Below are positions 47,111-64,000 of a stretch of DNA of 64,000 bases, piece after piece. The translations under genes and the position numbers were made by a program. The notes below the pieces were generated by a model. That model ran no database searches, was not told the DNA's origin, and was given only the letters and a program-made list of their open reading frames with translations. The DNA is taken from positions 1-64,000 of the forward strand of contig NZ_WOSX01000016.1 in the NCBI RefSeq assembly GCF_011516735.1. Direction: 5' to 3'. Every line of letters starts with the position of its first letter. Position 1 is the stretch's first letter. The stretch is from Acetobacter fallax (GTDB lineage Bacteria > Pseudomonadota > Alphaproteobacteria > Acetobacterales > Acetobacteraceae).

Positions 47111-48985
47111 GTGGCAGAATATCAAAGCCAGGGACCAGATGTGGCATTTTCCCCGCAGGCACAAAGTTGCAGCCACGACATGCAGGCAATCCGGCGCGCA
47201 CTCATTACGATCTGCGCCGTTTCCACCACCGCTCTGGCGCTTGTCTGGGTCATTGTCTCGGTCGCGCGAAAACCCTCTGTAAATCAAAGCAGTTTCGCCG
47301 CTCTCATCACAAAAACGCCACTTTCCGGACTCCTGATTGCTAATCTCTCCCTTGTCACAGCAGGAACTCTCGCAACACTGATCGTCATGCGATCCCGGCA
47401 AAAAGCCGACCTGAACACCCCGTCGCCATCCGGGTGGCTCGTGGCGTTCTCCATACTGCCCCTGTCGCTGATGGCACTCGTCGCTGCACAGAAATCGTCA
47501 GGGCGCGTTACGGATCTGGCGCCGTTCAGCCACACCGCACTCAGCCTGGCATCAGCCCTGACATTTGTGCTCGCTTTCATTTTTCTGCTTCTGGAACGCT
47601 CGCTTGCGACAGGACGCCATTCCGGTATCCTGGAGGCCGGCGGTCTGGCCGCCCTGCTCCGCGCCGTCATTGTCAGCCTTGCACTCTCAGGTTTTCTGGC
47701 CGGCTGCGGCGCAAGCGATATCAGTCTGTTAACCTGGCCGTGGCTTATCCCGATATGCCTGACACTCGCCGCCGCCTGCGAAACCATCATCAGAGTCATC
47801 GTCCGGCTGTTCTCTCCTCCTGCAACCGTGGCTACCACGTCCGCCTGCATCGGAAATATCCTTTTCGACAGCCCGCTGGCACTGCACCCCGCGCGCGTCG
47901 CAATGGTCATGAAGACCAGTTTCGGCATTGATTTCGAGCAGAGCTGGGCACTCAGTTTCGTATGGCGTGCCATGCTCCCGGTCACTGGCGCCATGATCCT
48001 CCTCGCCTGGACCTTCAGCGGTGTCGTGAAAATAGACCAGAATCAGAGAGGAATTTACGAACGCTTCGGAATTCCGCAGGCTGTTCTGGGGCCGGGACTG
48101 CACATCGTGCTGCCGCGCCCTTTCGGTTATGTCAGACTGACCGAGTTCGGAACGATCCGTTCCACAGTCATCACTGATCATGCCGATGCGGCAAAGGCTG
48201 CGGCCGATGTCTCCGGAGCCGAAGGCGAGGCACCGGAAAGCGCAAACCGGTTATGGGAGGACTCCCCCGAGGATGCCTCCTATCTCGTCGCCCGCAGCGC
48301 CGACGGCCGGGCCGGATTTGAAATGCTCACTGTTAATCTGCGTATTCTTTACCGCGTGCGCCTTTCCGATCAGGGCGCAATGGACGCGCTCTACAACGTT
48401 TCGTCCCCCGATGAACTGCTGCGTTCCCTTGCGCGCAGCGATCTGGTCATGTTCTTTGCCTCTGAAACGCTCGAAGGTGTCATGGCGACACGGCGCGATA
48501 AGGTCGCGGAAATCATCTCCGCAGATCTGCAGGCCAGCCTCGATCAGAGACATTCGGGCATCGAAGTCGTCGCCGTTCTCATCGACTCGATTCAGCCACC
48601 GGCCGCTGCCGCCCGGTCATGGCGCGCTGTGCAGGCCGCCGAGGTCAGGGTGCAGATGAGCGTGGCCGAAGAACGCACTCGTGCCGCAGGGACCGCCGCT
48701 CTCGCGCGCCGGGATGCCTACACCTTGCAATCATCGGCCCAGGCGCAGGCGGAAACCATCCGAAAGGCGGCGCGCGCCGACGCCACGCGGATGACCGGCG
48801 ATGACAGGGCATGGCACGAAAGCGGACAGGCTTTCCTGCTCGAATATTATCTCGCGGCTCTGAAAACCGCCCTGAACGGCGCGGCCATAACAGTCGTGGA
48901 CAGCCGTATCCCACGCAGCGTTCTGGATCTGCGCGACATGCCATTCAGCCTTCTTCCTCCTGCAGACAGCGCGGCCTCAAAATGA
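47111..48985 (+). CDS. SPFH-domain membrane protein 1 (HflK-like, multi-helix N-terminus)
   Basis: The GTG at 47111 gives 624 residues; an in-frame ATG at 47180 is an alternative. The first 300 residues hold about six hydrophobic segments, unlike HflK, which has one. The SPFH domain follows from KIDQNQRGIYERFGIPQAVL and GPGLHIVLPRPFGYVRLTEF. A basic/Ala-rich helical region near the end (AEVRVQMSVAEERTRAAGTA) resembles the HflK/flotillin coiled coil. SPFH proteins oligomerise into membrane scaffolds and can modulate FtsH protease. The stop overlaps the next gene by 4 bp (ATGA). Confidence 0.82.
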   Translation: MAEYQSQGPDVAFSPQAQSCSHDMQAIRRALITICAVSTTALALVWVIVSVARKPSVNQSSFAALITKTPLSGLLIANLSLVTAGTLATLIVMRSRQKADLNTPSPSGWLVAFSILPLSLMALVAAQKSSGRVTDLAPFSHTALSLASALTFVLAFIFLLLERSLATGRHSGILEAGGLAALLRAVIVSLALSGFLAGCGASDISLLTWPWLIPICLTLAAACETIIRVIVRLFSPPATVATTSACIGNILFDSPLALHPARVAMVMKTSFGIDFEQSWALSFVWRAMLPVTGAMILLAWTFSGVVKIDQNQRGIYERFGIPQAVLGPGLHIVLPRPFGYVRLTEFGTIRSTVITDHADAAKAAADVSGAEGEAPESANRLWEDSPEDASYLVARSADGRAGFEMLTVNLRILYRVRLSDQGAMDALYNVSSPDELLRSLARSDLVMFFASETLEGVMATRRDKVAEIISADLQASLDQRHSGIEVVAVLIDSIQPPAAAARSWRAVQAAEVRVQMSVAEERTRAAGTAALARRDAYTLQSSAQAQAETIRKAARADATRMTGDDRAWHESGQAFLLEYYLAALKTALNGAAITVVDSRIPRSVLDLRDMPFSLLPPADSAASK

Positions 48986-50052
48986 ACGGACCGGTAAACG
49001 GAATGCTCCCGGAAACGGGAAACAGGCAGTCAGCCCTCGCCCTTCCCGAAGGCATAAGCCCATCAAAGCGAAAAGGACTGCCTGGCCTCGTTTCACGTTT
49101 TGCCATCGCCGGGCTGGTTTTCTGCGCAGCCCTGTCCACGGCCACATCCTTCACGGTCGAAACCGGCAAGGCCGTCGTGGTCACACGCTTCGGCGCACCG
49201 GTTCGCGTCCGCACCGAACCTGGCCTGCTCTGGAAACTTCCCGCCCCGCTCGAAGTCGGACAGGTTGTCGACCTGCAAACGCGCACAACCTCAGGCGGCC
49301 TTCAGGATGTCGGAACACGTGACGGACTGCGCGTGCTGGTGCAGGCCTATCTGGCATGGTCGGTCTCCGGAGATCCCGAACACATCCGGCATTTCCTCCG
49401 CGCCACGGGAAATGATCCGGACGAGGCCGCCCGCCAGCTCAGATCCCTGCTCGGCTCGACGCTCCAGATTGTGGCAAGCGATTTCCCTCTCCGAAACCTC
49501 GTCAACACAGACGCACGGGAGGTCAGAATTCCCGAATTCGAGAAAAAGCTGCTGGCCGCTCTCCAGCCGCAGGTCGAAGCCATATACGGCATCCATATTG
49601 ATCAGGTCGGCATGGAGCGCCTGAGCCTTCCGGCCGAAACGCTGAGCGCGACAGTCGCACGCATGAGAGCCGAGCGTGAAACCGTTGCCGCCGCCCGAAC
49701 CGCTGAAGGGCTGCGTCAGGCGGCCGCCATCAAATCCGACGCCCAACGGGATGCCCGTATCATCGTCGCTCAGGCAAAAGCGGACGCCGCAATAACGGAA
49801 GCAAAGGCGCGCGAAGACGCCGCCCGGATCTACGCTGACAGCTACACGAAAAATCCTGACCTCTACACAACCCTTCGCACACTCGATACGCTGAACAGCA
49901 TTGTCGGCCGAAGCACGCGACTGGTCATGCGCACCGATGCGCCCCCCTTCAACGCCCTGACCGGTCTCCGGGAAGCAGGGCAGGGGACTCCGGCCACACT
50001 CCCTCCGCACAGAACCGATGACCATCAGACAAAAGCCAGGACCGCGCGGTGA
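48982..50052 (+). CDS. SPFH-domain membrane protein 2 (HflC-like)
   Basis: The ATG at 48982 overlaps the preceding stop and gives 356 residues. One membrane helix (about 35-58) precedes the SPFH domain: FTVETGKAVVVTRFGAPVRV, then TEPGLLWKLPAPLEVGQVVD. The later part has IHIDQVGMERLSLPAETLSA and a long Ala/Arg/Glu coiled coil (AIKSDAQRDARIIVAQAKAD), as in HflC. The order HflK-like, HflC-like, HflK-like with full overlap suggests one mixed complex. No ftsH gene is nearby. Confidence 0.87.
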   Translation: MNGPVNGMLPETGNRQSALALPEGISPSKRKGLPGLVSRFAIAGLVFCAALSTATSFTVETGKAVVVTRFGAPVRVRTEPGLLWKLPAPLEVGQVVDLQTRTTSGGLQDVGTRDGLRVLVQAYLAWSVSGDPEHIRHFLRATGNDPDEAARQLRSLLGSTLQIVASDFPLRNLVNTDAREVRIPEFEKKLLAALQPQVEAIYGIHIDQVGMERLSLPAETLSATVARMRAERETVAAARTAEGLRQAAAIKSDAQRDARIIVAQAKADAAITEAKAREDAARIYADSYTKNPDLYTTLRTLDTLNSIVGRSTRLVMRTDAPPFNALTGLREAGQGTPATLPPHRTDDHQTKARTAR

Positions 50053-51188
50053 CGCCGGAAATCAGCGTGGTCGGGGAACCGGGACCGCCCGTCGACGGCG
50101 CGCTGGAACAGTCCGTCCGTCTCGCTTTCATGGTGCTGAGCGGCGTGACCATCCTGCTCGGACTGGTCTGGCTCACCGGCAACATCCGTTCCGTTCCTCC
50201 CGACAGCAACGCAATCGTGGTGCGTTACGGAAAGATCATGTCCGTCCGGCACTCCGGACTTGTTGTCGCCCTGCCAGGGCCATTTGAAAACGTTTATTTC
50301 CTGCCCTCGCAGGATAAGCAGCTCTCCCTGCACGTCACGCGTGACAACACTGATTACAGCAGTGACGAAACGGATCTCGAACTTCAGGAATCCGATGATT
50401 TCTATCACATGGAAAAAAGCCGGGATGCCGCGAATTCAAGCTACCTCCTGACCGGCGACGGCAACGTCGTTCGTCTGGACGCCAACCTGTTCTATCGTAT
50501 CGTCCGCCCGGTTTCCTACGTGCAGGCCCGCCCGCACGTCCCGGCCGCCCTGAGACGGCTCTTTTACGCCGCGGCAACGGATGTCGCGGCGTCCCACCCT
50601 GTCGGGGACTTTCTCGTCGTCCGGTCCTCATTCGATACAGCCGCGGGAGACGATGCGCTCCCGGCGCGTCGCGCAGCCCTCCGCAGCGAACTTCTCGCTG
50701 CCGTGAATGCCCGTCTGGCAGCTCTGCGTGGCCACAACACCGATCCCGGGATCGAAGTGGCCCGCATCGACCTCATGGTCGTCCTGCCGCCGCGTGCAAA
50801 GCAGGCCTTCGATCAGGTGCTCACAGCGGAACAGTCCGCCGCACAGGGTATCGCAGCCGCCCGCACGGAAGCGGAACATATCCTTCAGGAGGCCGGTCGC
50901 GAACGTGATCGTCTGGGCGCGGATGCCGCCGCCGCCGCCGTCGAGTCCGTCCATCAGGCTTCCGGGGAAACCGCCGCCATCTCTGCCGTCGAAAATGCGG
51001 CGCGCGCTCCATCGGCCGATACGCGCCACGCCGTCGAACTCCAGGCATGGCGCGAAAAAACGACCGCCATCTTCGCAAAGGCCGGGCGTGTTACCGGGAT
51101 CGCCCCGGAGACCGGGCAGATTCTCCTCCCCGGTCCCATGCCTGAACAGCCATCCGAAGCCGGGCAGGGCGAAGGAAATATCCCATGA
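50049..51188 (+). CDS. SPFH-domain membrane protein 3 (HflK-like)
   Basis: The GTG at 50049 overlaps the previous stop (GTGA) and gives 379 residues. One membrane helix (LAFMVLSGVTILLGLVWLTG) is followed by the SPFH domain: SVPPDSNAIVVRYGKIMSVR, then HSGLVVALPGPFENVYFLPS. A middle segment rich in Asp and Glu (DYSSDETDLELQESDDF) precedes a strand NVVRLDANLFYRIVRPVSYV typical of HflK. The C-terminal coiled coil (LTAEQSAAQGIAAARTEAEH) ends in a Pro/Gly-rich tail. The stop overlaps the P-type ATPase start by 4 bp. Confidence 0.85.
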   Translation: MTPEISVVGEPGPPVDGALEQSVRLAFMVLSGVTILLGLVWLTGNIRSVPPDSNAIVVRYGKIMSVRHSGLVVALPGPFENVYFLPSQDKQLSLHVTRDNTDYSSDETDLELQESDDFYHMEKSRDAANSSYLLTGDGNVVRLDANLFYRIVRPVSYVQARPHVPAALRRLFYAAATDVAASHPVGDFLVVRSSFDTAAGDDALPARRAALRSELLAAVNARLAALRGHNTDPGIEVARIDLMVVLPPRAKQAFDQVLTAEQSAAQGIAAARTEAEHILQEAGRERDRLGADAAAAAVESVHQASGETAAISAVENAARAPSADTRHAVELQAWREKTTAIFAKAGRVTGIAPETGQILLPGPMPEQPSEAGQGEGNIP

Positions 51189-53170
51189 GCGCGACCAGCT
51201 TCTCCTCAGCGCCTGATGCCGGACGCGGGCTCGGTCATCACGCACAGCAGGTGACAACCGCCGCGGGGCCTGGCGCCCTGATGACCTACGCCGGGAAATG
51301 GGCGCTGGGAAGCCGTCTCGTGCTCGCTATGATTGCCTGCTGGCTGCTGGTGATCGCCCTGGTCTGGAAATATCTGGTCTCCGCCAACAGCGCCGTGCCC
51401 GACCTCGCCGCCACCGGTGCCGCGCTGCTGGTTGCCGCCCCCGTCCTGAGCGCGGCACTCGCCAGCCTGCGCCATCCGTCGCTGCATGGCCTCACAGACC
51501 AGCTCGTCGCCGTGGCCATGCTCGCCTCATGGGCGGCGGGCGATCTGCTCACGGCTGCGCTGCTGCCCATCGTCATGATCGTCGGACATGTGCTCGAAGA
51601 GCGTTCCCTGCTCGGATCTCAGGAAGCCATCCGCGCGCTGGAACGCCTCGTCGACACCACAACCCTGCGCCTGAACCCGGACGGCACAACAGAGGCCGTC
51701 ACCGCTTCACAGCTCGCCACGGGAGACCGCCTCGAACTTCGCGCCGGCGACCGCGTTCTCGCCGACGGAATTGTCCTCACGGGCCAGTCCTCGCTGGATA
51801 TGGCCTCCCTCACAGGCGAGTCAGTCCCCGTCGAAGTCGGACCCGGTGACCGCGTCCTTGCCGGAACGATCAATCTCTCCGGCGTGCTGACCACGGAAAT
51901 CACCCGCATCGGTGGTGAAACGGCACTCGGGCAGATCATCGCCCTCATGGAAGTGGCGGAAGAAGCCAAACCACCCCTCACACGCCTGCTGGAGCGTTAC
52001 GCCGGCCGATACATGGCGCTCATCATGACCATCTCCGCCGCCGTGTGGTTCGCGTCCGGCTCCACCTCCGCCATGCTTGCCGTCCTCGTCGCGTCCTGCC
52101 CCTGCGCCGTCGTCCTCGCCGCCCCGGCTGCGTCCATCGCCGCCATCGCCGTTGCCGCCCGCCACGGAATCCTGATCAAGGGCACCGCCTTTCTCGAACA
52201 TCTCGCCGACGTGACATCCCTTGTCATCGACAAGACAGGAACCCTCACAACCGGCCGCCTCGCCCTCGACCGCACACTCGCCCGACCCGGCACTACGGAG
52301 GAGCAGCTCCTGTCCCTCGGCGCCGCGCTGGGCAGCCTCAGCACCCACCCGGTGAGCCGCGCGCTGGCCCGCACCACAACCACCCACCCGTCCTTCTCAT
52401 TCAGCGACGTGCAGGAACAGCATGGACTCGGCCTGCGCGCCGTGGCGGAGGACGGCACCATATTTCTCATGGGACGACCTGCCCTGCTGGCAGGGGAGGG
52501 GATCGATCCCGGCCCCGTTCCCGACCATGACGGACCAATGGTCTGTCTGAGCCGGAACGGTACCCTGCTGGGCTGGCTGCTCCTGTCCGACTGCCCGCGT
52601 CCCGAAGCCGCCGGGGCTATGCAGGATCTGCGTGACCTCGGCCTCTCCCGCCAGATCCTCCTCACCGGAGATCGCCGCGCTGTCGCGCAGCGGATCGGAG
52701 CTGAAGTTGGCATCACGGTCATTCAGGCCGAAGTGCTCCCGGCCGAAAAAATGAACTGTGTTCTGACTGAAATCGATCATGGTCAGCGTCCTCTGGTCGT
52801 GGGAGACGGAATCAACGACGCCCTTGCCCTGCGCGCGGGCGCTGTCGGAATCGCCATGGGAGCGGAGGGCACCGACGTCGCACTCAGTTCCGCCGATCTG
52901 GTCCTGATGCAGTCAGACCTCCGGCGTCTCGGCACAGCCATCCGACTCAGCCGCCGCTGCCGGCGCACTATCCAGGTCAACGTGGGCATGGGCGTTGGCT
53001 GGACCGGTATCCTCATCACCTGCGCCGCGTTCAACCTGCTCGGCGCGCAGGGCGCCGTCATGGCCGCCGTGCTCCACAACGCCTCAACGCTCGCCGGCCT
53101 CGCCAATGCCGGCCGCCTGCTCCGGTTTGATGAAACACGCCGGACTTTACAAACGAGAACGTCATCATGA
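51185..53170 (+). CDS. P1B-type heavy-metal-translocating ATPase without N-terminal metal-binding domain
   Basis: The protein has 661 residues. The actuator motif SLTGESVPVE, the membrane metal site C305-P-C307 in VASCPCAVVLAAPAAS, the phosphorylated Asp349 in IDKTGTLTTG and the hinge GDGIND (540-545) are all present. The start (MSATSFSSAPDAG) leads straight to membrane helices, so the usual HMA or His-rich N-terminal domain is missing. The last helices contain AAVLHNASTLAGLANAGRLL, unlike the Cu (NxxxYN/MxxSS) or classic Zn patterns, so the metal is not assigned. It is fused by overlaps into the three-gene SPFH operon, an unusual context for a metal pump. Confidence 0.9.
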   Translation: MSATSFSSAPDAGRGLGHHAQQVTTAAGPGALMTYAGKWALGSRLVLAMIACWLLVIALVWKYLVSANSAVPDLAATGAALLVAAPVLSAALASLRHPSLHGLTDQLVAVAMLASWAAGDLLTAALLPIVMIVGHVLEERSLLGSQEAIRALERLVDTTTLRLNPDGTTEAVTASQLATGDRLELRAGDRVLADGIVLTGQSSLDMASLTGESVPVEVGPGDRVLAGTINLSGVLTTEITRIGGETALGQIIALMEVAEEAKPPLTRLLERYAGRYMALIMTISAAVWFASGSTSAMLAVLVASCPCAVVLAAPAASIAAIAVAARHGILIKGTAFLEHLADVTSLVIDKTGTLTTGRLALDRTLARPGTTEEQLLSLGAALGSLSTHPVSRALARTTTTHPSFSFSDVQEQHGLGLRAVAEDGTIFLMGRPALLAGEGIDPGPVPDHDGPMVCLSRNGTLLGWLLLSDCPRPEAAGAMQDLRDLGLSRQILLTGDRRAVAQRIGAEVGITVIQAEVLPAEKMNCVLTEIDHGQRPLVVGDGINDALALRAGAVGIAMGAEGTDVALSSADLVLMQSDLRRLGTAIRLSRRCRRTIQVNVGMGVGWTGILITCAAFNLLGAQGAVMAAVLHNASTLAGLANAGRLLRFDETRRTLQTRTSS

Positions 53171-53652
53171 AATCCGGTGGTCTGCTCATCCGATCCGTTC
53201 TCCGCATTTGCATCCTGGCCGGCATGACCATCACCTGTGCTCACGCAGAGCCACCGCCGCCGGTCCAGGCAGGTGAGCCGAACGACAGAGTCAGTGCCAT
53301 TCTCCTTCGTCCGCTTTTCGAGCCGGATCGTCGCCCGAAAGGCGTTGCGAGATCGGATGAAGGCAGTTTCGACATTTCAGGAATCGTGGGAAAAGACCGA
53401 AACTGGCGAGCGATTTTCAAACCGGAGAAGGAGGAGGCGAAAAGCCGTGTCGTGACAGTCGGAGAGCAGGTTGATGGATGGACCGTCACGGCAATTGCTC
53501 CGGAAGCCGTCACGCTTTCAAAAGGATCGGAAACAAAAAGAATGTCTCCGGTTTTTTCAAAGTTTTTCATGCCTGAAGTGTCGGAAAAAGATAAACTCGC
53601 TGGCGTTAAAATCATGAGTCAAAAACGGAAAGATCCCCACCTCGCCTGGTGA
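53167..53652 (+). CDS. GspN/GspC-like periplasmic protein
   Basis: The protein has 161 residues, with a start overlapping the ATPase stop (ATGA). A signal peptide (LRICILAGMTITCAHAEP) is followed by ILLRPLFEPDRRPKGVA, the R-P-L-F-x-P-x-R-R motif seen at the start of the homology region of GspC/GspN-type secretion proteins. The rest, ISGIVGKDRNWRAIFK and VGEQVDGWTVTAIAPEAVTL, is the small beta domain of that family. The gsp locus at 33-44 kb has neither gspC nor gspN, so this may supply the missing part. Its residence in the SPFH/ATPase operon is odd. Confidence 0.7.
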   Translation: MKSGGLLIRSVLRICILAGMTITCAHAEPPPPVQAGEPNDRVSAILLRPLFEPDRRPKGVARSDEGSFDISGIVGKDRNWRAIFKPEKEEAKSRVVTVGEQVDGWTVTAIAPEAVTLSKGSETKRMSPVFSKFFMPEVSEKDKLAGVKIMSQKRKDPHLAW

Positions 53653-53778
53653 CAGGCCATTTCTGTCACGTGAATGTCATGCAACGATCACATCGCAAAA
53701 TCAAAGTCATTCATAAAATGACGTCAGGAAATCATACGTAATATTCGTCATGATCAGCTTTTCCCTGACAAGGCTCCG

Positions 53779-55926
53779 ATGTCTCCGCGATCATTTTTTC
53801 TGACAGGTCCGCTTCCTGGTCTGATCTTCCTGTTCTCCCCGTTACAGGCACACCAGTTCTCATCGGAAGAAGCGAATCAGGTTCTTTCCGACAGCACGCA
53901 CAGTTACAGGGAGCCCGCTCATCCCTCTTACTGGTCGTCCCGCCTCCCGGAAGCACAATCCACCTGCGGTGCCGGTTCCGTCCGGCGCTCCGGCTCGACG
54001 GTGACGGCAAATCTTGATCTTGCCTACTCACGAAACAGGATATGGAATCCGGCAGAAAACCGGAATGATACTGTCAGGCTCAGATCTTATAACGGATGCC
54101 TTGCCGCACCGACCATCGTTGTGTCGCCCGGTGACGATCTGCATATCAATCTTACGAACAACCTGCCCGACGAGCCGACGGATAACTGCCCGAAGACCAT
54201 AAATACGCCATCCTGTTTTAACCACCAGAACCTGCATCTTCACGGCATGCATGTTTCTCCGCAGGGACACAGCGACAACGTCATGCACGCCATCCTGCCG
54301 CAGGGCGGGCGCTGGAATTATCGTTACGCCATCCCGTCCGATCATCCGGCCGGAACATTCTGGTACCATGCGCACGAACATGGAGCGACATCCATCGGCG
54401 TGGCCAGCGGGGAAGAGGGTGTTCTGATCGTCGGCGGAAAACGGCGATACACGGACAGGAAAAATCATGGCGGCGTCGCGGATCTCGACACGATCCTGCA
54501 TGACAGTTCCGGCGAACCGATCCCGGAACGAATCATGCTCTTCGAACAGATCCCTTACGGATGTTTCACCGACAAAACATATAAAACCCTGATGCAGGAC
54601 GAAACCACCGGCATATGGCAATGCCCGAAAAATGCTGACGGCGTCGTCGAAAACTTCCACAGTCAGTTCATCGGCAGCCGAACCGACCCGGATGGCACCA
54701 GCCGTGACGCCTGGCAGCTCTCCCGGCGCTACACACTCGTCAACGGCGAGACACAGCCGGTTCTCAATACCCGTGTCGGACGGGTGGAACGCTGGCGCAT
54801 GATTGCAGGCGGCGTCCACGACACACTGAACATATCAATCATCGGGACACGCCGGAGCACTGCGGGAGGAGGCCCGCATCCGCCGTCTTACGCAGGAAAC
54901 GATGCGCAGGCCATGACCTGCGACGGGGAGACAGTCGCCCAGTATGAAATCGCCGAAGATGGACTGACCCGGCAATCAGTCTCCCGAAAAGACATCAATT
55001 ATCTCTTTCCCGGTCAGCGCAGTGACGCTCTGGTCACGTTCCGCAAGCCCGGCCTTTACTGTGTCGTCGATCAGGGCGGCAGCACTCTGAACACGGTCAT
55101 CCCGCTCAGATCGCGTCCGGAAGGAAAATCACCCGCGCTGATTGCCGTGGTGTCCGTCGCGCCGGAAGACGGAAACAGCATGGCGCAGCAGCCCGAAAGT
55201 GAGGCGCGAATCCGGAAACTGTTCGAGCAGGGATCGGAAGGTCTCCCCTCCTTTGTGCGCGCCCGTCTCGCGCTGTTCGATCTCTCCGACTTCGCCTATT
55301 TTCCACCGGGAGGAGAGCCCGGGAGTGATCTCTCGATGGCCACTGTCACGCACAGACCAACCGCATTCTTCGGCTCGCTGAGCATGCCTCTTGCCGCCGG
55401 AGCTTCTCTGCCGGCGGATCAGCCAATGCCCGACACAAGCATTAACGGGATGATCGGCCTCGTCGAAAATGATCTGGTGAAAATCAACGGAGTCAGCGCA
55501 TTGCCCTTCAGTATGGACCCGACGCACTCCTATCACGTCAGGCTGGGAGATGTGGACGAATGGCGCATCGGAACCCACACCATGGGAACGGGCACCAGCG
55601 CCGGGCAGCATGTGTTCCACATTCACGTCAATCCCGTCGAAATCATGGATATCGTTGACGAGACCACGGGAGAGTCGATTTTTACGGCCGGCGGGCAGTG
55701 CAGGCTGCAATATCGTCTCAACGCTTCCGGAAATACGAACGATGCGTCTTACAGTCCTGAATACTGCGACCAGCGCCATGTCTTCCGGGACAGCCTGTTC
55801 GTGAAACCGGGCTTCCAGACCGTTGTTCGCACCCGATACGATGATTTCCCGGGTGACGTCATGCTGCATTGTCACATTCTGGATCACGAAGACCAGGGAA
55901 TGATGACCTATGTGACGGTAGAATAA
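53779..55926 (+). CDS. Exported multicopper oxidase
   Basis: The protein has 715 residues. The first 24 residues are hydrophobic with a likely signal cleavage near LQAHQ. All four copper motifs are present: HLHGMH (153-158), HAHEHG (197-202), HVFHIH (611-616) and HCHILDHEDQGMM (697-709), the last containing the type 1 Cys and the axial Met. So type 1 and trinuclear copper sites should be intact. The family includes laccases and copper-resistance oxidases. It is preceded by its own gap of 126 bp and closed by a terminator, so it is probably separate from the ATPase operon. Cu handling beside a P1B ATPase is suggestive. Confidence 0.93.
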   Translation: MSPRSFFLTGPLPGLIFLFSPLQAHQFSSEEANQVLSDSTHSYREPAHPSYWSSRLPEAQSTCGAGSVRRSGSTVTANLDLAYSRNRIWNPAENRNDTVRLRSYNGCLAAPTIVVSPGDDLHINLTNNLPDEPTDNCPKTINTPSCFNHQNLHLHGMHVSPQGHSDNVMHAILPQGGRWNYRYAIPSDHPAGTFWYHAHEHGATSIGVASGEEGVLIVGGKRRYTDRKNHGGVADLDTILHDSSGEPIPERIMLFEQIPYGCFTDKTYKTLMQDETTGIWQCPKNADGVVENFHSQFIGSRTDPDGTSRDAWQLSRRYTLVNGETQPVLNTRVGRVERWRMIAGGVHDTLNISIIGTRRSTAGGGPHPPSYAGNDAQAMTCDGETVAQYEIAEDGLTRQSVSRKDINYLFPGQRSDALVTFRKPGLYCVVDQGGSTLNTVIPLRSRPEGKSPALIAVVSVAPEDGNSMAQQPESEARIRKLFEQGSEGLPSFVRARLALFDLSDFAYFPPGGEPGSDLSMATVTHRPTAFFGSLSMPLAAGASLPADQPMPDTSINGMIGLVENDLVKINGVSALPFSMDPTHSYHVRLGDVDEWRIGTHTMGTGTSAGQHVFHIHVNPVEIMDIVDETTGESIFTAGGQCRLQYRLNASGNTNDASYSPEYCDQRHVFRDSLFVKPGFQTVVRTRYDDFPGDVMLHCHILDHEDQGMMTYVTVE

Positions 55927-56210: not shown

Positions 56211-56367
56211 GTGTTTCGGAAAAAAGGGATGCCTCCGCTCCATACCTGGAAAGCCGGACCTGCCGCCCCGTCACTCACGTAAGACGCTCCCTGCATATCC
56301 CCGATTCTTCCGCCGAACGAACAGGCCGGTCCTCCGGATGACCATGCCTGCTGGAGATTTTTCATTC

Positions 56368-59300
56368 ATGACAGCCTCATCGCTTTCCGGAACTGCTTCT
56401 TCAGTCACCGTTGCATCGGGCAATACGCTCACGCTCAGCAGCGGTGCTCAGGTCTCCGGACTCGATATCGAGTCCGGAGGGATCGTGAAGATTCTTGCCG
56501 GGGCTTCCGTCATGGATGGCTCCGTCGAAACCGGTGGTGTTCTCTCCGTGTCAGCGGGCGGCACGGCCGAAAACCTCGACATCGCCGTCTCCGGTCGGGT
56601 CAACATCTCCTCCGGCGGCATCGTCACCGGTGCCAGTCTTGACGCAGGTGCGCTGCTCTATGTCTATTCCGGTGGCGTCAGCAGCGACAGTATCGGTGGG
56701 ATTCAGGTCAGTTCGGGTGGCCTCTCCGTTGACGGAACAGCGACATCCGGCGCTGCTTTCTACATCTTCAAAGGCGCTGAGGCCTCCGGAACAGTCGTTA
56801 CAAGCTCCGGAATCATCCGTCTTTCAGCAGGCGGAACCGCAACGGATACAACGGTGAAATCCGGCGGCTACCTCTGGGTCTCCTCGGGCGGCGTGGCAAG
56901 CGGCGCGGATATCGTCACCAGCGGCGGTTACATCGGCGTCAGTTCCGGCGGCAGCGCGACCGATGTGACGATCAACGGCGGATCAGGGCGAATTTCCGGG
57001 ATCGGAACGGATTATACCCTGACCAGCGGCGCCTATCTCTGGATCTCGGCCGGTGGTGTACTCTCCGGGGCCACGTTCGACACCTCCGCTTACGCGATGA
57101 TGAGCAGCGGCGCCCTCACTGAAGAGGTGACAGTCGAAAACGGTGCGACCCTGTATGTTTCGGCAGGCGCGAAAACCGTCAGCACCACCGTCCTCTCCGG
57201 CGGTTCGCAACAGGTCGCCGGCGAGACTGACAACGCCGTGATCTCCTCCGGTGGAATCGACATCCTTGCAAGCGGCGCCATCGGAAGCGGCGACACAATC
57301 GCCAGCGGCGGTGTCGGGATCGTCTCCTCCGGTGCCAGCGTCACAGGGGAGACCGTGCTCACAGGCGGCCAGCTGGTCCTCATCCCGGGCGCCACTGCCA
57401 CCGGTCTCATCAACGAAGGCGGGGATATCATTTCCGCCGCCGCCCTGCTCACCTCTTCCGGCCAGTTCGTCAGCGCCTTTTCCGCCGACGATCTGGCAAA
57501 AGACAGTCTTCCCGTCGATAGCGGCCTGACACTGGATGTCTATGCCGGGGCGAATCTGACCTCCGCTCAGGAACAGGGAACGGTCCTGATCGAAACCGGC
57601 GCGACAGCAACAGGCGATGTCCTGTCCGCAGGTGCCGGGCAGGATGTGTTCGGGCAGGCTTCCGGCACCGTCGTGCAGTCCGGAAGCACCGAAATCGTCG
57701 AAACCGGCGGCCTTTCTGTCAGCGGCACGGTGCAGTCAGGCGGTATTGAGCAGGTCAGTGGTCAGGTCAGCGGTTTTTCAGTCCTGTCCGGTGCATCGCT
57801 GAACGTCAGTGCGGATGGTATCGCACAGAATGATATCATCAGCTCCGGTGCCATCGAAATCATCTGTTCCGGCGGTTCAGCCGTTTCCGAAACCATCGCT
57901 TCCGGTGCAACACTGGTGGTCATGGACGGCGCGTCAGTGTCCGGTCTTCTGCCGGAATCCGGCTCGCAAATCATCTCCGGAACGGTTGTCCTCACGTCGA
58001 ACGGGGGAGCGCTCAGCGCCGCCGCGGACGTAATGTCGGACCCGTCTGTCGGCAGCGGAGCGACTGTCACCGTCTATGACGGAGGCGAAACCCTCAGTGC
58101 CTCGCTCGATCTGAATGGCAGCGAAACCGTCCTGTCCGGTGGCATCGCTTCCGCCACACAGGGCGGCAACATCACCGTGCTCTCGGGAGGCCTGCTCACA
58201 GGCGGAACACAGCTCTCCGAAACATATGACTACATCTCCGCCGGTGGCGACATCAGCGGCGTGACGATCGGTGATTCCGCAACACTGCGCATCTGGTCCG
58301 GCGGCCAGGGTGAGGATCTCACTGCCGTCAATGGCGGGCTGATCTGGCAACATTCCGGCATCGTCTCCGGCGTTCTGCTGGAATCCGGCGGTTATCTCGG
58401 CGTCAGCGCAGGCGCGATCGCAATCGATGTCGATATCGAAGGCGGCTCCGGACGCATCTCCGGTCTCGGTTCGGACTACACGCTCAACAGCGGAGGCTAC
58501 GTCTGGGTGTCCGCTGCCGGCATCCTCGAAACAGCGACATTCGAAGGCGCGGCCTCCGCCTTCATCAGTAGCGGCGGCCTCATCGACAGCGCATCCGTCA
58601 CCGACGGCAGCGTGCTCTACGTCTCGGCAGGCGCCACAACCTCTGACACGGATGTCGGCTCCGGCGGCGTGCAGCAGATCGGCGGCACGACCGTCAATGC
58701 CCTGATCGGGGACGGTGGAACCGATTTCCTCACCGCGGGCGCACTCGCCAGCGGTAACACAGTGCAGTCCGGCGGCATCGAGGTCGCTTCCTCCGGCGCC
58801 ACCGTGATCAGCGAAACCGTCGGCTCCGGTGGCACGCTGCTCGTCCTCGACGGCGCAAAAGTCAGCGGAACCGTGAACGCCGGCGGCAATGTCGTCTCGG
58901 CCGGCGTCTACGTAACGTCCGGCACGGCAGTCGTCTCCGTCACACCCGGAACGCTTTCCGGTCTGACCATCGACAATGTTTACGAAAGCGCGGCTGTTCT
59001 CCCCGGAGGTGAAGTCGATGACGCCACAATCACGGCGGGCGCCGTCCTCCAGGTCCTGTCCGGCAGCCTCGCCAGCGGCACAGTGGACGGGAGCGTGGTC
59101 ACAGTCGCCGCCGGAGGGCAGGCCACCGCAACAACCGTCGAAGGCCGATACGCCACACAGACCGTCTCCGGCACGGCAACAGGAACAGTCATCGGCAGCG
59201 GTGGCGCCGAACTGACAGTCCAGGGCGCCACCACCTCCGGCGCCATCGTGCAGGCCGGCGGCACGGAACAGGTCACCGGCACGGCACAGGGCGTCACCAC

Positions 59301-61700
59301 CTCCGCGGGCGGCCTCACGGAAATCCTCTCAGGCGGCGCAGGACAGAACGACCTCATTGCCTCGGGAGGCTTTGAAATCGTCTCCGCAGGCGGAGCCGTC
59401 ACCAGCGAAACCATCGCATCGGGTGGCACCCTCGTCCTCGAAAGCGGCGCGTCCGCCACGGATCTGACACTGGAAGATGGTGGACAGATCGTCAGCGCGG
59501 GCGTGCTCGTCGTCGAGAACGAACGCGTGACCTCTGCCATCGCCGGCACGGCTTCCGGCCTGACTCTCGACGATTACAACGCAGACGGTGAAATCCTCTC
59601 CGGCGGCGCCACAGATGCCGCCGTGATCGGCGAATACGCCATGCTCAGCGTCTCCGCAGGCGGCGTGGCCCACCAGACACAGGATAGCGGTGACGTTGAG
59701 GTGCTCTCCGGCGGCCTGACCGACGGCACCGTGGTGAGCAGCCTGGCCACGGAAACCATCCGCTCCGGCGGCCTCGCTTCCGGCACACAGATTCTCGCGG
59801 ATGGCGAGCAATATATCTCCGCGGGCGGCACCGCCATCGGCACGCAGGTGGCCTCCGGCGCCACACAGACCATCTTCGGCACAGCCAGCGCCACCACCGT
59901 CGGGGCCGGTGGCACGGCAGACGTTCACGGTGCCATCCTCAGCGCCACAATCACCTCCGGCGCACGACTGACGGTGGCCTCCGGCGCCACAGCAACCGGC
60001 GATACTCTCCTCTCCGGCGCGATTGAAGTGGTCTCCTCCGGCGCACAGGTCTCAGGCGAAATCGTTGCTTCCGGCGCAACACTTATCGTTCTTGACGGAG
60101 GTGAGGCCGACAGTATCGGCTCGCAGGGCGGAACCGTCGTCACCTCCGGTGTCATCATCTCCTCAGGCGGCGTCATCCTGTCCGGCATTGCCGGCACCGC
60201 TTCCGGCCTCGTCCTCGACGGCACCAACGGTGACGCCATCGTCCAGCAGGGGGGCGAAGCCGACGACACCATCATCTCCGGGGCGTCCACTCTGTTCATC
60301 GAAGACGGTTCGCTGACCTCCGGCAGCATCGTCTCGGGCTCGGAAGTCGTTGATGTCGGCGGAACCGCTCAGGCCAGCCAGATCGAAGGCGGACTCCAGA
60401 CCGTCAGCGGAACAGCCCTTGACGCGGTCGTAGGGCAGTCCGGCCAGCAGGCCATCGATACGACGGGTGCCGCAACCGGAACCACCGTGCAGTCCGGTGG
60501 CACAGTTCTCGACTCAGGCACCCTGTCGGATGCGGACGAACAGACAGGTGGCGTCGTGATGGTGCTCTCAGGCGCCTCTGCTTCCGGCAACGTCATCGGC
60601 GACGGTGCCATTGAGGTCGTATCCGCCGGAGGCACCGCAACCGGTGAAGAACTGGACGAAGGCGGCACGCTGATCGTCATGCCCGGCGCCAATGTGACCG
60701 ACACCACTCTCGCCGGTGGCCTCGTCGTCTCGTCCGGCGAAGTGTTCTATGACGATACAACGCCGGTCAGCGCCACCACAGCTCCCATTGATGGCGCAGT
60801 GCTGTCCGCAGGCATCTCGGCCATCGTTCTCTCCGGCGGCGCCACCATCACAACCCTGATCGAAGACGGAGCGACCCTCTCCGTCCTCGGCGGTGGCCTT
60901 GCCGCCGACACCACCGTCAGCGGTGACCTCAACCTCGCCAGCGGCGCCGGCGCGGCCGCCACCCTGCTGCTCAGTGGCGGCACGGAAACACTCGCCTCCG
61001 GCGCCACAGACTCTGCTACAATCCTGAATTCCGGCAGCTTCCAGGATGTGCGCCAGGGCGGCGTCACCGTCAGTGCCCAGGTCTGGTCCGGCGCCAGCCA
61101 GTCAGTCTACGGTGTAGCGGAAAACACGGCCGTTATCGGCGGCGAGCAGTATGTTTATGGTACCGCCGACGAAACCATCCTCCTCGCGGGCGCCGTGCAA
61201 TACATTGCTCCCGGCTCCACCAGCGCCACGCTCTCCAGCGCCAATAGCGGCCTGACCGCAACAGGCGGCGGCGGCGCGGGCAGCCCCGGCTATGCCGAAC
61301 GGGTCGATATCGAATCCGGCGCATCGCAGTTCGTCGGCGGCGCGGCCTCCACCGTTATCGTCGAAGCCGGCGGCGTGCAGACCATCGGGAGTGTCGGACT
61401 CGTCAGGGGAGACCTCATCGCGGGCACGGCAACCGTCTCCTCAGGCGGAACGCTGGACGGTGCCATCATCGCCAGTGGCGGGACGCTCGTGCTCAGCAGC
61501 GGAGCCGCCGCGGAAGACGTGCTCCTCCGGTCCGGCAGCACCATCGATCTCGTTGACATGGACTACACCTCGGCCACAGCACTCCAGCTCTCCGGCGGCT
61601 TCGAACTGACCATCAGCGCCGCCGGCCAGACCATGACCATCGACCTCGACGGCACATACGACGCCGCCTCCTTCGCTCTCTCGGGCGACACCGGCAGCGG
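56368..61700 (+). repeat. Coding tandem repeats (AIDA-like passenger)
   Basis: The DNA repeats degenerate units of roughly 57-60 bases, giving about 19-20 residues per turn with a conserved SGG at each turn. A higher-order duplication is visible: the stretch around 56980-57300 (GGSGRISGIGTDYTLTSGAY ...) recurs about 1.46 kb later around 58440-58750 (GGSGRISGLGSDYTLNSGGY ...), with neighbouring units in the same order. This is coding sequence that probably folds as a long parallel beta-helix. Confidence 0.8.
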
Positions 61701-64000
61701 CACGCTGCTCAGCGTGGTGCAGGATGGCACGCCCTGTTATTGCCGCGGCACGCTGATCACGACGGAACACGGGGAAATCCCCGTCGAACAGCTCAGCATC
61801 GGTGACCACGTCATCACCGCCGAAAACGGACCTCGCCCCATCCGCTGGATCGGCCGCCGCTCCTATTCCGGCCAGTTCGCACGGGGCAACCGGGACATCC
61901 TGCCCGTCGTCTTCCGCAAAGGATCGCTCGGAAACAACCTGCCCACAACCGACCTGTCCGTCTCCCCGCTCCACGCCATGTTCCTGGATGGTGTGCTGGT
62001 CCCGGCCGTCACGCTGGTCAACGGCACGAGCATCGTCCAGGCCGAATGCATGGACGAAGTGGCTTACTTCCATATCGAACTCGACAGCCACGACCTCGTC
62101 CTCGCCAACGGGGCACCCTCCGAAACCTTCATCGACGATGGCTCACGCGGCATGTTCCATAACGCCGCTGAATACGCGACGCTTTACCCGGACGCCTCCA
62201 CGCAGCCCGCGACATACTGCGCCCCGCGTGTGGAACACGGAGCCGGGATCGAACGGATACGCAGCCGCCTGAACGCGCCTGCTGCGGATGGCAGCGAAAA
62301 TCGTCCCGAAGACGCACCGCTGCTCGGCTATCTCGATCTCGTCAGCCGGACACGCATCGAAGGCTGGGCCCGCACGGAGGGCGCCAGTCAGCCGGTGCGC
62401 CTGCACATCACGGACAGAGGTGTCGTGCTGGGTGAGGTCATTGCGGACCAGCCACGCCCCGATGCCGGTGGCGCATACGGATTCACCTTCCTGATTCCCG
62501 GCGGCCTGTCCCCCTTCCGGCGGCATGTCATCGAGGTCCGCCGCGTCAGCGACAGGGCAGCCCTGAAAAACACCCCGTGGATGCTCGACCAGACAGCCTC
62601 CGGCCCGACGCGGATCGCCGTGCCGGTCACTCCGTCCGAAACCGCGCTGGAAGGATATGTCGATTTCGTAACGCGCGACCGGATCGGCGGCTGGGCATGG
62701 ACCCCGGAAACCCCTGACGAGCCCGTCGCTCTCCAGATCCTCGACAACGGAAACCTCATCGCCGCCGTCGTCGCGAATGGCATCCGTCAGGACGTGTCCG
62801 GAACGGGCCGGGGTCTGCGCTGCGGGTTCGATGTCCTGCTCCCCGAAGGTCTTCCGCCCTTCACCCGCCATGTCATCGAAGTGCGCCGCGAAAACGATGG
62901 TGCATTGCTGGGCGCCCCGGTCACGCTTGAGCCGGTCAACGCCTTCGATCAGGACGCAGAAGACGCCATCCGTCGCGTCGTGACCTCCGCCGCCAGTCTG
63001 GAAGGGCAGGATCGTGTGCTCTCCTTCCTGCTCGGCCAGGTCGATCAGCTCACCCGCATCCGCGTCCGGACAGCCAGCGGTGAAACCGCCCGCGCCCTGA
63101 CCAGCGCCCGCCGCCGCCGTGGCCTTCCTGCCGGAACACCGGCTCCTCGCCGTCATGCTCTGATCATCGACGGCATGCACCCGGACATAAACCGCGACGC
63201 AGGCTCCTGCGCAGTGCTCGCACACGCACGTGCCCTCATCACGCTGGGTTATGAGGTGTCCTTCGTGGCCGCCGACCAGATGAGCGGCGGCAGTCCCTCC
63301 ACGCAGATCGCCGGCATCACCATGCTGACAGCACCGCTTTACAGCAGCGTGGAAGATGTGCTCGCCAAACACGCCGACATCTTCGACGTGGTCTATCTGC
63401 ACCGGCAGGACATCGCGACCCGCTACATGGCGCTCGTCCGGCGCTACCAGCGCTCAGCCCGCGTCCTCTACAACGTGGCCGACCTGCACCACGTCAGAAC
63501 CCTGCGCCAGGCCGGTGTCCAGAAGCGCCCGGAACTCATTGCCCGCGCCCGCTCCGTGAAACACGCTGAATACACAGCCGCGCTTCAGGCCGACGCGGTT
63601 CTGGTCCACTCCCCCGAGGAAGCAAAGCAAATGCAGGTCGCGCTGCCTCAGGCCACCATTCACGTCGTGCCCTGGAGCGTGTCCGTGCGGCCAGAGCCGA
63701 AAACGCCCATGGAACGGAACGGCCTCGTCTTCCTCGGAAATTACAGCCACGAACCAAACGTGGACGCTGCTTTCTGGCTGGTCCGCGATATCATGCCGCT
63801 CGTCTGGAAACAGGAGCCTTCCATTCGCTGCCTGCTGGCCGGAGCAGATATGTCAGAGTCCATCAGGGCTCTTGAAAGACACGGTGTCGGGATCGTCGGC
63901 CACGCACCCGACCTCGATACAATGTTCTCAGAAGTGCGCCTGAGTGTTTCCCCATTACGCTTCGGCGCCGGCATCAAGGGAAAGGTGCTGGAAAGCTTCG
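56368..64000 (+). CDS. Giant AIDA-repeat / Hint / glycosyltransferase-like protein (3' end outside the window)
   Basis: One frame runs from the ATG at 56368 (GGAG upstream) to the window edge without a stop, 2,544 codons. Residues about 1-1780 are Ser/Gly/Ala/Thr/Val-rich repeats of AIDA-autotransporter type (SSGG-x-A...V-x-SGG). Residues about 1788-1930 are a Hint_2 domain: PCYCRGTLITTEHGEIPVEQ with Cys1790/1792, and LSVSPLHAMFLDG with His1869. Two copies of a module of about 95 residues follow (LLGYLDLVSRTRIEGWA and LEGYVDFVTRDRIGGWA, each ending in RHVIEVRR). From about 2260 there is a GT4-like glycosyltransferase region: RRHALIIDGMHPDINRDAGS, then PRY-rich linkers, and FLGNYSHEPNVDA ... 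PLRFGAGIKGKVLESF at the edge. There is no N-terminal signal peptide; any beta-barrel would lie beyond the window. Function is unknown. Confidence 0.85.
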   Translation, partial: MTASSLSGTASSVTVASGNTLTLSSGAQVSGLDIESGGIVKILAGASVMDGSVETGGVLSVSAGGTAENLDIAVSGRVNISSGGIVTGASLDAGALLYVYSGGVSSDSIGGIQVSSGGLSVDGTATSGAAFYIFKGAEASGTVVTSSGIIRLSAGGTATDTTVKSGGYLWVSSGGVASGADIVTSGGYIGVSSGGSATDVTINGGSGRISGIGTDYTLTSGAYLWISAGGVLSGATFDTSAYAMMSSGALTEEVTVENGATLYVSAGAKTVSTTVLSGGSQQVAGETDNAVISSGGIDILASGAIGSGDTIASGGVGIVSSGASVTGETVLTGGQLVLIPGATATGLINEGGDIISAAALLTSSGQFVSAFSADDLAKDSLPVDSGLTLDVYAGANLTSAQEQGTVLIETGATATGDVLSAGAGQDVFGQASGTVVQSGSTEIVETGGLSVSGTVQSGGIEQVSGQVSGFSVLSGASLNVSADGIAQNDIISSGAIEIICSGGSAVSETIASGATLVVMDGASVSGLLPESGSQIISGTVVLTSNGGALSAAADVMSDPSVGSGATVTVYDGGETLSASLDLNGSETVLSGGIASATQGGNITVLSGGLLTGGTQLSETYDYISAGGDISGVTIGDSATLRIWSGGQGEDLTAVNGGLIWQHSGIVSGVLLESGGYLGVSAGAIAIDVDIEGGSGRISGLGSDYTLNSGGYVWVSAAGILETATFEGAASAFISSGGLIDSASVTDGSVLYVSAGATTSDTDVGSGGVQQIGGTTVNALIGDGGTDFLTAGALASGNTVQSGGIEVASSGATVISETVGSGGTLLVLDGAKVSGTVNAGGNVVSAGVYVTSGTAVVSVTPGTLSGLTIDNVYESAAVLPGGEVDDATITAGAVLQVLSGSLASGTVDGSVVTVAAGGQATATTVEGRYATQTVSGTATGTVIGSGGAELTVQGATTSGAIVQAGGTEQVTGTAQGVTTSAGGLTEILSGGAGQNDLIASGGFEIVSAGGAVTSETIASGGTLVLESGASATDLTLEDGGQIVSAGVLVVENERVTSAIAGTASGLTLDDYNADGEILSGGATDAAVIGEYAMLSVSAGGVAHQTQDSGDVEVLSGGLTDGTVVSSLATETIRSGGLASGTQILADGEQYISAGGTAIGTQVASGATQTIFGTASATTVGAGGTADVHGAILSATITSGARLTVASGATATGDTLLSGAIEVVSSGAQVSGEIVASGATLIVLDGGEADSIGSQGGTVVTSGVIISSGGVILSGIAGTASGLVLDGTNGDAIVQQGGEADDTIISGASTLFIEDGSLTSGSIVSGSEVVDVGGTAQASQIEGGLQTVSGTALDAVVGQSGQQAIDTTGAATGTTVQSGGTVLDSGTLSDADEQTGGVVMVLSGASASGNVIGDGAIEVVSAGGTATGEELDEGGTLIVMPGANVTDTTLAGGLVVSSGEVFYDDTTPVSATTAPIDGAVLSAGISAIVLSGGATITTLIEDGATLSVLGGGLAADTTVSGDLNLASGAGAAATLLLSGGTETLASGATDSATILNSGSFQDVRQGGVTVSAQVWSGASQSVYGVAENTAVIGGEQYVYGTADETILLAGAVQYIAPGSTSATLSSANSGLTATGGGGAGSPGYAERVDIESGASQFVGGAASTVIVEAGGVQTIGSVGLVRGDLIAGTATVSSGGTLDGAIIASGGTLVLSSGAAAEDVLLRSGSTIDLVDMDYTSATALQLSGGFELTISAAGQTMTIDLDGTYDAASFALSGDTGSGTLLSVVQDGTPCYCRGTLITTEHGEIPVEQLSIGDHVITAENGPRPIRWIGRRSYSGQFARGNRDILPVVFRKGSLGNNLPTTDLSVSPLHAMFLDGVLVPAVTLVNGTSIVQAECMDEVAYFHIELDSHDLVLANGAPSETFIDDGSRGMFHNAAEYATLYPDASTQPATYCAPRVEHGAGIERIRSRLNAPAADGSENRPEDAPLLGYLDLVSRTRIEGWARTEGASQPVRLHITDRGVVLGEVIADQPRPDAGGAYGFTFLIPGGLSPFRRHVIEVRRVSDRAALKNTPWMLDQTASGPTRIAVPVTPSETALEGYVDFVTRDRIGGWAWTPETPDEPVALQILDNGNLIAAVVANGIRQDVSGTGRGLRCGFDVLLPEGLPPFTRHVIEVRRENDGALLGAPVTLEPVNAFDQDAEDAIRRVVTSAASLEGQDRVLSFLLGQVDQLTRIRVRTASGETARALTSARRRRGLPAGTPAPRRHALIIDGMHPDINRDAGSCAVLAHARALITLGYEVSFVAADQMSGGSPSTQIAGITMLTAPLYSSVEDVLAKHADIFDVVYLHRQDIATRYMALVRRYQRSARVLYNVADLHHVRTLRQAGVQKRPELIARARSVKHAEYTAALQADAVLVHSPEEAKQMQVALPQATIHVVPWSVSVRPEPKTPMERNGLVFLGNYSHEPNVDAAFWLVRDIMPLVWKQEPSIRCLLAGADMSESIRALERHGVGIVGHAPDLDTMFSEVRLSVSPLRFGAGIKGKVLESF

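Follow-up and report, generated by a model that had tools for sequence, protein, structure and literature searches.

The window analysed here, bases 1-64,000 of the 78,140 bp Acetobacter fallax contig NZ_WOSX01000016.1, ends inside a giant open reading frame (ORF) whose product joins a long repeat passenger to a Hint_2 autoprocessing domain, a pair of modules that we call MOD, and a glycosyltransferase (GT) of the GT4 type. Our analyses confirmed that this Hint-GT architecture is real and recurrent; each part is of a known kind, and what is new is the tied Hint-GT cassette and its setting beside a gene of the TibC family. The pairing of Hint and sugar enzyme persists in many relatives, which suggests an as yet undescribed route by which surface proteins are finished. 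The reading we favour, whose chances seem to us about even, is that of a barrel-free giant Acetobacter adhesin finished by TibC-family heptosylation and by a Hint-MOD-MOD-GT4 processing unit, the GT4 sugaring the passenger side. The features, in contig coordinates, are these:

56338..64000 within the window, to 64257 on the contig, + strand: giant ORF, an open frame with its likelier start at ATG 56368
56368..61707, + strand: passenger of about 1780 residues of strand-loop-strand (AIDA/TIGR04415) repeats, from profile matches
61732..62139, + strand: Hint_2 autoprocessing domain, aa 1799-1934, from profile and predicted fold
61732..61743, + strand: predicted scissile junction between Pro1799 and Cys1800, with CxC motif (Cys1800, Cys1802), from residue conservation
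61963..61974, + strand: block B motif Ser1876-x-x-His1879 (S/T in 68/68 Hints, His in 68/68)
62122..62127, + strand: Glu1929-Thr1930 where an intein has its terminal His-Asn; Asn absent (Glu in 68/68, S/T in 68/68)
62140..62292, + strand: conserved tail behind the Hint
62323..62583, + strand: MOD 1, Ig/FnIII-like beta-sandwich, a weak match, from predicted structure and structural matching
62650..62925, + strand: MOD 2, Ig/FnIII-like beta-sandwich, likewise a weak match from predicted structure and structural matching
62950..63117, + strand: helical linker, from the structure model
63154..64000, + strand: GT4 glycosyltransferase of GT-B fold, from profiles and predicted fold, the domain ending at about 64212, past the window
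64328 (ATG)..65668, beginning 70 bases past the giant ORF stop: TibC-family gene (TIGR04414)

The giant ORF is stop-free and encodes 2639 aa, or 2629 aa from the likelier ATG, a start in agreement with a 2629-aa database copy and with three relatives. As this database entry represents two member sequences, each on its own contig, the reading of the giant frame is not limited to one assembly. An earlier note, made from the letters of the window, had described repeats, Hint, paired modules and GT in this order and had judged the Hint Cys and His to be intact, and both observations were borne out, the first by profile and fold analysis and the second by the retention of Cys1800 and His1879 in all 68 Hints aligned. 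The true C-terminus, which the note had expected beyond position 64,000, was found there without a frame break.

The fused order proved to be present in relatives. Among 72 MOD-GT genes in retrieved regions (those covering query matches of >200 bits, near-identical species copies included), 42 were fused behind a Hint, 29 lay just downstream of a same-strand Hint gene and one stood apart, the last having entered with the 12 regions retrieved last, before which all 60 genes counted had been fused or adjacent; at one locus (L174) the Hint is truncated and there is a 969-base gap, and the row L008, being part of the window's own gene, was excluded. The MOD-MOD-GT query, which contained no Hint sequence, matched 34 of 49 genus genomes at E <=1e-10 (29 strongly, 5 weakly). 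At split loci MOD was mostly present in both partners (Hint-MOD, then MOD-GT); remoter GT matches without MOD (L276-L278, L283-L286) had no Hint that we found nearby, and one protein (L282) consists of MOD-MOD with neither Hint nor GT. A scan of named genomes found 356 relatives, and the 80 loci kept, which were picked by Hint patterns, comprised 49 fused, 29 split and 2 neighbouring otherwise, from Acetobacter, Gluconobacter, Asaia, Brytella, Neokomagataea, Acidiphilium, Acidisphaera, Acidisoma, Acidocella and Methylobacterium, with further loci in unplaced metagenome bins, including one that carries the label Pseudomonadaceae. Hint_2 itself is widespread, being present in 188/249 genomes sampled from the family, and the source genome has seven Hint_2 genes, five of them GT-linked: C16, C4 and C5 are fused, C51 and C23 have the GT in the next gene, and C10 and C14 have no GT link.

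Hint and GT distances co-vary (rho 0.83 for 34 fused and 0.66 for 21 split loci, Mantel p 0.001), and on a GT tree of 60 rows the fused or split state requires 2 changes (2-3 in bootstraps), of which well-supported branches force only 1; the tree rows, 55 of which entered the distance test, were set before the last 12 regions. A protein-database search, scoring only the 7999 candidates with the most shared words, returned 132 proteins matching the region, and 94 of the 120 listed carry PF13403 and PF13692. The passengers in front of the cassette among those listed were varied: AIDA repeats, PF03372 nuclease, PF00082 subtilisin, PF00353 RTX, PF12951, PF07676 and others. One locus (L009:5942-11191) encodes a nuclease-type protein fused to Hint-MOD-MOD-GT, and similar fusions occur in Gluconobacter, one of them annotated "putative extracellular nuclease/glycosyltransferase involved in cell wall biosynthesis". 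The earlier note knew of no described system with this architecture, and we likewise found no description of a Hint-GT fusion in the literature, judged by titles and opening abstract lines, a search that subscription papers may escape. That a Hint is bound to one GT type, whether in one protein or through gene order, in Acetobacteraceae and Methylobacterium alike offers a testable entry to new protein-finishing chemistry. Acetic acid bacteria are important for food and cellulose.

The Hint_2 domain has the Hint fold and scores above the PF13403 cut-off. Across the 68 aligned Hints, Cys1800, His1879, His1918 and Glu1929 are invariant, and positions 1876 and 1930, the latter in the place of the terminal Asn, are S/T throughout. 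In the structural alignment with intein 2imz the aligned range stops at Thr1930 against intein residue 440, which we take to be the intein's last Asn. The giant protein's Hint thus has no C-terminal His-Asn, whereas type A bacterial intein-like (BIL) domains have one. The BIL types are defined in PMC4031507, which describes type B BILs as cleaving without splicing. Judged by its residues, the pattern here appears to be that of type B BILs, with which it shares Hint fold, N-terminal Cys, block B motif and lack of C-terminal His-Asn, and it is also compatible with Hedgehog-like chemistry. Unlike those domains, this Hint precedes a MOD-GT4 half and has a P/A-C-[YF]-C active site that tracks GT linkage: the residue at -1 is Pro or Ala in 104/105 GT-linked Hints versus 4/25 Hints without GT, and C-x-C occurs in 93/105 versus 2/25, a contrast for much of which shared ancestry may account. 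Some species copies are doubled in both Hint sets (68 and 130), and 2 Hints of the larger set fall outside the pattern. In 21 Hint proteins without MOD (e.g., L054:7963-10782, L128, L137) the Hint is followed by a tail, 166-175 residues long in most and 152 in one, in which no kinship to MOD was detectable.

The enzyme at the C-terminus, proposed as a glycosyltransferase in the earlier note, belongs to a GT4-type sequence family and has a predicted GT-B fold. Its best NCBIfam model, TIGR03087 (stp1), a glycosyltransferase of the PEP-CTERM/XrtA system, matched with an E of 3e-29, far under the cut-off (102 vs 317 bits). SdgB of Staphylococcus has a GT4-type fold and glycosylates SD-repeat adhesins; its likeness to the giant protein's GT is a structural match only, at about 13% identity, and SdgB has no Hint.

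The neighbour downstream of the giant gene, which the earlier note missed, is a clear member of the TibC family (TIGR04414, 611 bits vs a cut-off of 200; alignment to TibC, 4rap, E 9e-124). It keeps TibC D110, K230, R286 and W305, with Ser for T226, and Cys at all four iron-finger positions (339, 342, 358, 370), which are kept in 39 or 40 of 40 copies compared; in TibC, D110 is the catalytic base, K230, R286, W305 and T226 bind the sugar and the four Cys bind Fe (PMC4358343). A supply of ADP-heptose is plausible, since the source genome has an rfaE/hldE domain I above cut-off. The genome's 35 TIGR04415 matches (E <=0.001) are confined to four proteins, C16, C51 and C23 plus C5 with a single match under cut-off, each fused or adjacent to a GT cassette, and the PF03797 barrel had no match in the genome in a search that detected its positive controls. 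The similarity to TibC/Aah with the TibA/AIDA-I autotransporters (BAHT family, PMC4358343) is thus twofold, a neighbouring TIGR04414 enzyme that keeps its catalytic and iron-finger residues and a passenger carrying TIGR04415 target repeats, but the giant protein lacks a beta-barrel and a clear Sec signal and ends in Hint-MOD-MOD-GT. TibC-type heptosylation would here have moved outside the autotransporter world, as the only target-type repeats found in the source genome are in barrel-free Hint proteins. Three TibC genes adjoin GT-fused giants, downstream at the window locus and head-to-head in G013 and G033, and TibC neighbours are also present in Gluconobacter sphaericus, Acidisphaera and one strain of Acetobacteraceae. 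Among 37 genus genomes the cassette was present in 21/24 with TibC versus 0/13 without (Fisher p 1.6e-7, relatedness ignored), and a strong autotransporter match in 7/24 versus 10/13 (p 0.0075, likewise ignoring relatedness); the cassette and autotransporter thresholds were set after the match lists had been viewed, and five genomes with weak matches to the MOD-MOD-GT query were not scored as cassette carriers.

Based on these features, the favoured reading can be set out as a series of steps. The TibC-family neighbour, given its family membership and kept residues, would O-heptosylate the strand-loop-strand repeats, and the C-terminal Hint-MOD-MOD-GT4 cassette would act as a reusable processing unit. 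Its conserved residues and fold suggest that the Hint would form a thioester at Pro1799-Cys1800 and separate passenger and MOD-GT half, either through hydrolysis or through nucleophilic attack. The GT4 might be kept at the Hint by the fusion, or perhaps via the paired MOD domains, and could, as a guess, sugar the passenger, its new C-terminus or the group that resolves the thioester. The earlier note had suggested that the fused GT could glycosylate the adhesin or make a polymer; the enzyme most clearly suited to glycosylating the repeats is the TibC-family neighbour, and the fused GT does not look specific to AIDA repeats, as the same GT type also stands behind nuclease and protease passengers. 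This variety argues for a GT whose role lies less with the repeats than with the Hint junction or with some feature shared by passengers in general, and the split loci, with the GT as its own gene, argue that freeing the GT is not the Hint's only purpose. Together they leave two leading ideas, a tethered, dedicated GT that sugars the passenger, or a coupling like that of Hedgehog.

Several points weigh against the favoured reading. The second TibC gene of the source genome stands alone, with no Hint or repeat gene within the 19 kb retrieved; of 44 TibC genes or fragments, only 11 have a Hint gene no more than 500 bp away; TibC also adjoins Hint proteins without GT, so the GT is not required for the TibC-Hint pairing; and 7 of the 24 genomes with TibC contain a strong autotransporter match as well. 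The MOD-GT gene that stands apart (L332:9449-19119) has 4.3 kb between its GT gene and Hint gene, at a locus that may be broken because its GT match comes in several pieces, and the linkage counts, like those of co-occurrence, ignore relatedness. The placement of the GT relative to the Hint is uncertain because the structure model of the cassette has a predicted template modelling score (pTM) of 0.55. Pro at -1 disfavours N-terminal cleavage in inteins and makes easy hydrolysis less likely. A hydropathy list judged by eye showed no clear Sec signal peptide for the giant protein, and no exporter was seen beside the loci in a weak scan that also missed a known ABC exporter.

The earlier note had raised the possibility of simple release, in which Hint hydrolysis parts the adhesin from the GT, an ordinary cytoplasmic enzyme that extends repeat sugars or makes a polymer. 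Its domains, their order and the active site all stood, but a Hint solely for release is odd where the GT is encoded from the outset by a neighbouring gene of its own (29/72) and the Hints, also those at split loci, retain their catalytic residues; as the GT type is also found behind nuclease, subtilisin and RTX passengers, we consider this explanation unlikely, though not to be taken lightly.

Less probable, in our view, is a Hedgehog-like coupling, in which the thioester is resolved by the hydroxyl of a sugar, or by a glycolipid, bound or built by MOD-GT, leaving the passenger joined at its C-terminus to a glycan and so anchored. The MOD-GT half occupies the place of Hedgehog's sterol recognition region, which is needed for cholesterol ligation (PMC7906309). 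As in Hedgehog autoprocessing, the Hint is C-terminal to its passenger, the terminal Asn is absent, and a second region behind the Hint could present a nucleophile; the near-obligate Hint-GT linkage and the special P/A-C-x-C active site also speak for it, and such a coupling would give anchoring without a barrel. Unlike Hedgehog, the giant protein is bacterial, Ig-like modules and a GT4 enzyme make up its second region, and the adduct is purely conjectural; Pro at -1 is a further difficulty, and no Hedgehog Hint was among the 50 structural matches listed, which excludes nothing. In its fullest form, which we regard as a long shot, the system would be a bacterial counterpart of Hedgehog, in which a Hint_2 thioester and a MOD-GT4 sugar or glycolipid nucleophile would cut unrelated passengers (adhesin, nuclease, protease) and join them to a glycan in one step; if true, it would mean barrel-free anchoring of surface proteins. 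It is very improbable that the Hint is a structural relic and the chain works uncut, e.g., as a cytoplasmic or surface-displayed enzyme-adhesin, as Cys1800, S/T1876, His1879 and His1918 are kept in 68/68 Hints. A chance gene fusion without shared function, for which prior odds alone speak, is barely credible when 71/72 MOD-GT genes are fused or adjacent to a Hint and 78/80 named loci, chosen as they were by Hint patterns, are fused or split-adjacent, the other two being neighbouring otherwise.

Around the loci, one Hint-only protein (L053:7532-13603) has HlyD and an ABC exporter with a C39 peptidase as neighbours, which offers a clue to possible type I-like export of Hint_2 proteins. PF04185 phosphoesterases (L008:2829-4757, contig about 65828-67756, and L011:25-1947) adjoin two paralogous Hint-GT loci of the source genome, and the family recurs at 5 retrieved Hint-GT loci. 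By sequence reading, C23-type split loci (L012, L187-L190, L192, L194, L290, L293) have a GT2-like gene nearby, and eight of this type also have an ArnT-like membrane protein, which may be plain synteny. Upstream of the giant ORF, at window positions 48811-55926, Pfam identified Band 7, E1-E2 ATPase and multicopper oxidase, and the gene at 48811 resembles, from its sequence only, a second Band 7 protein.
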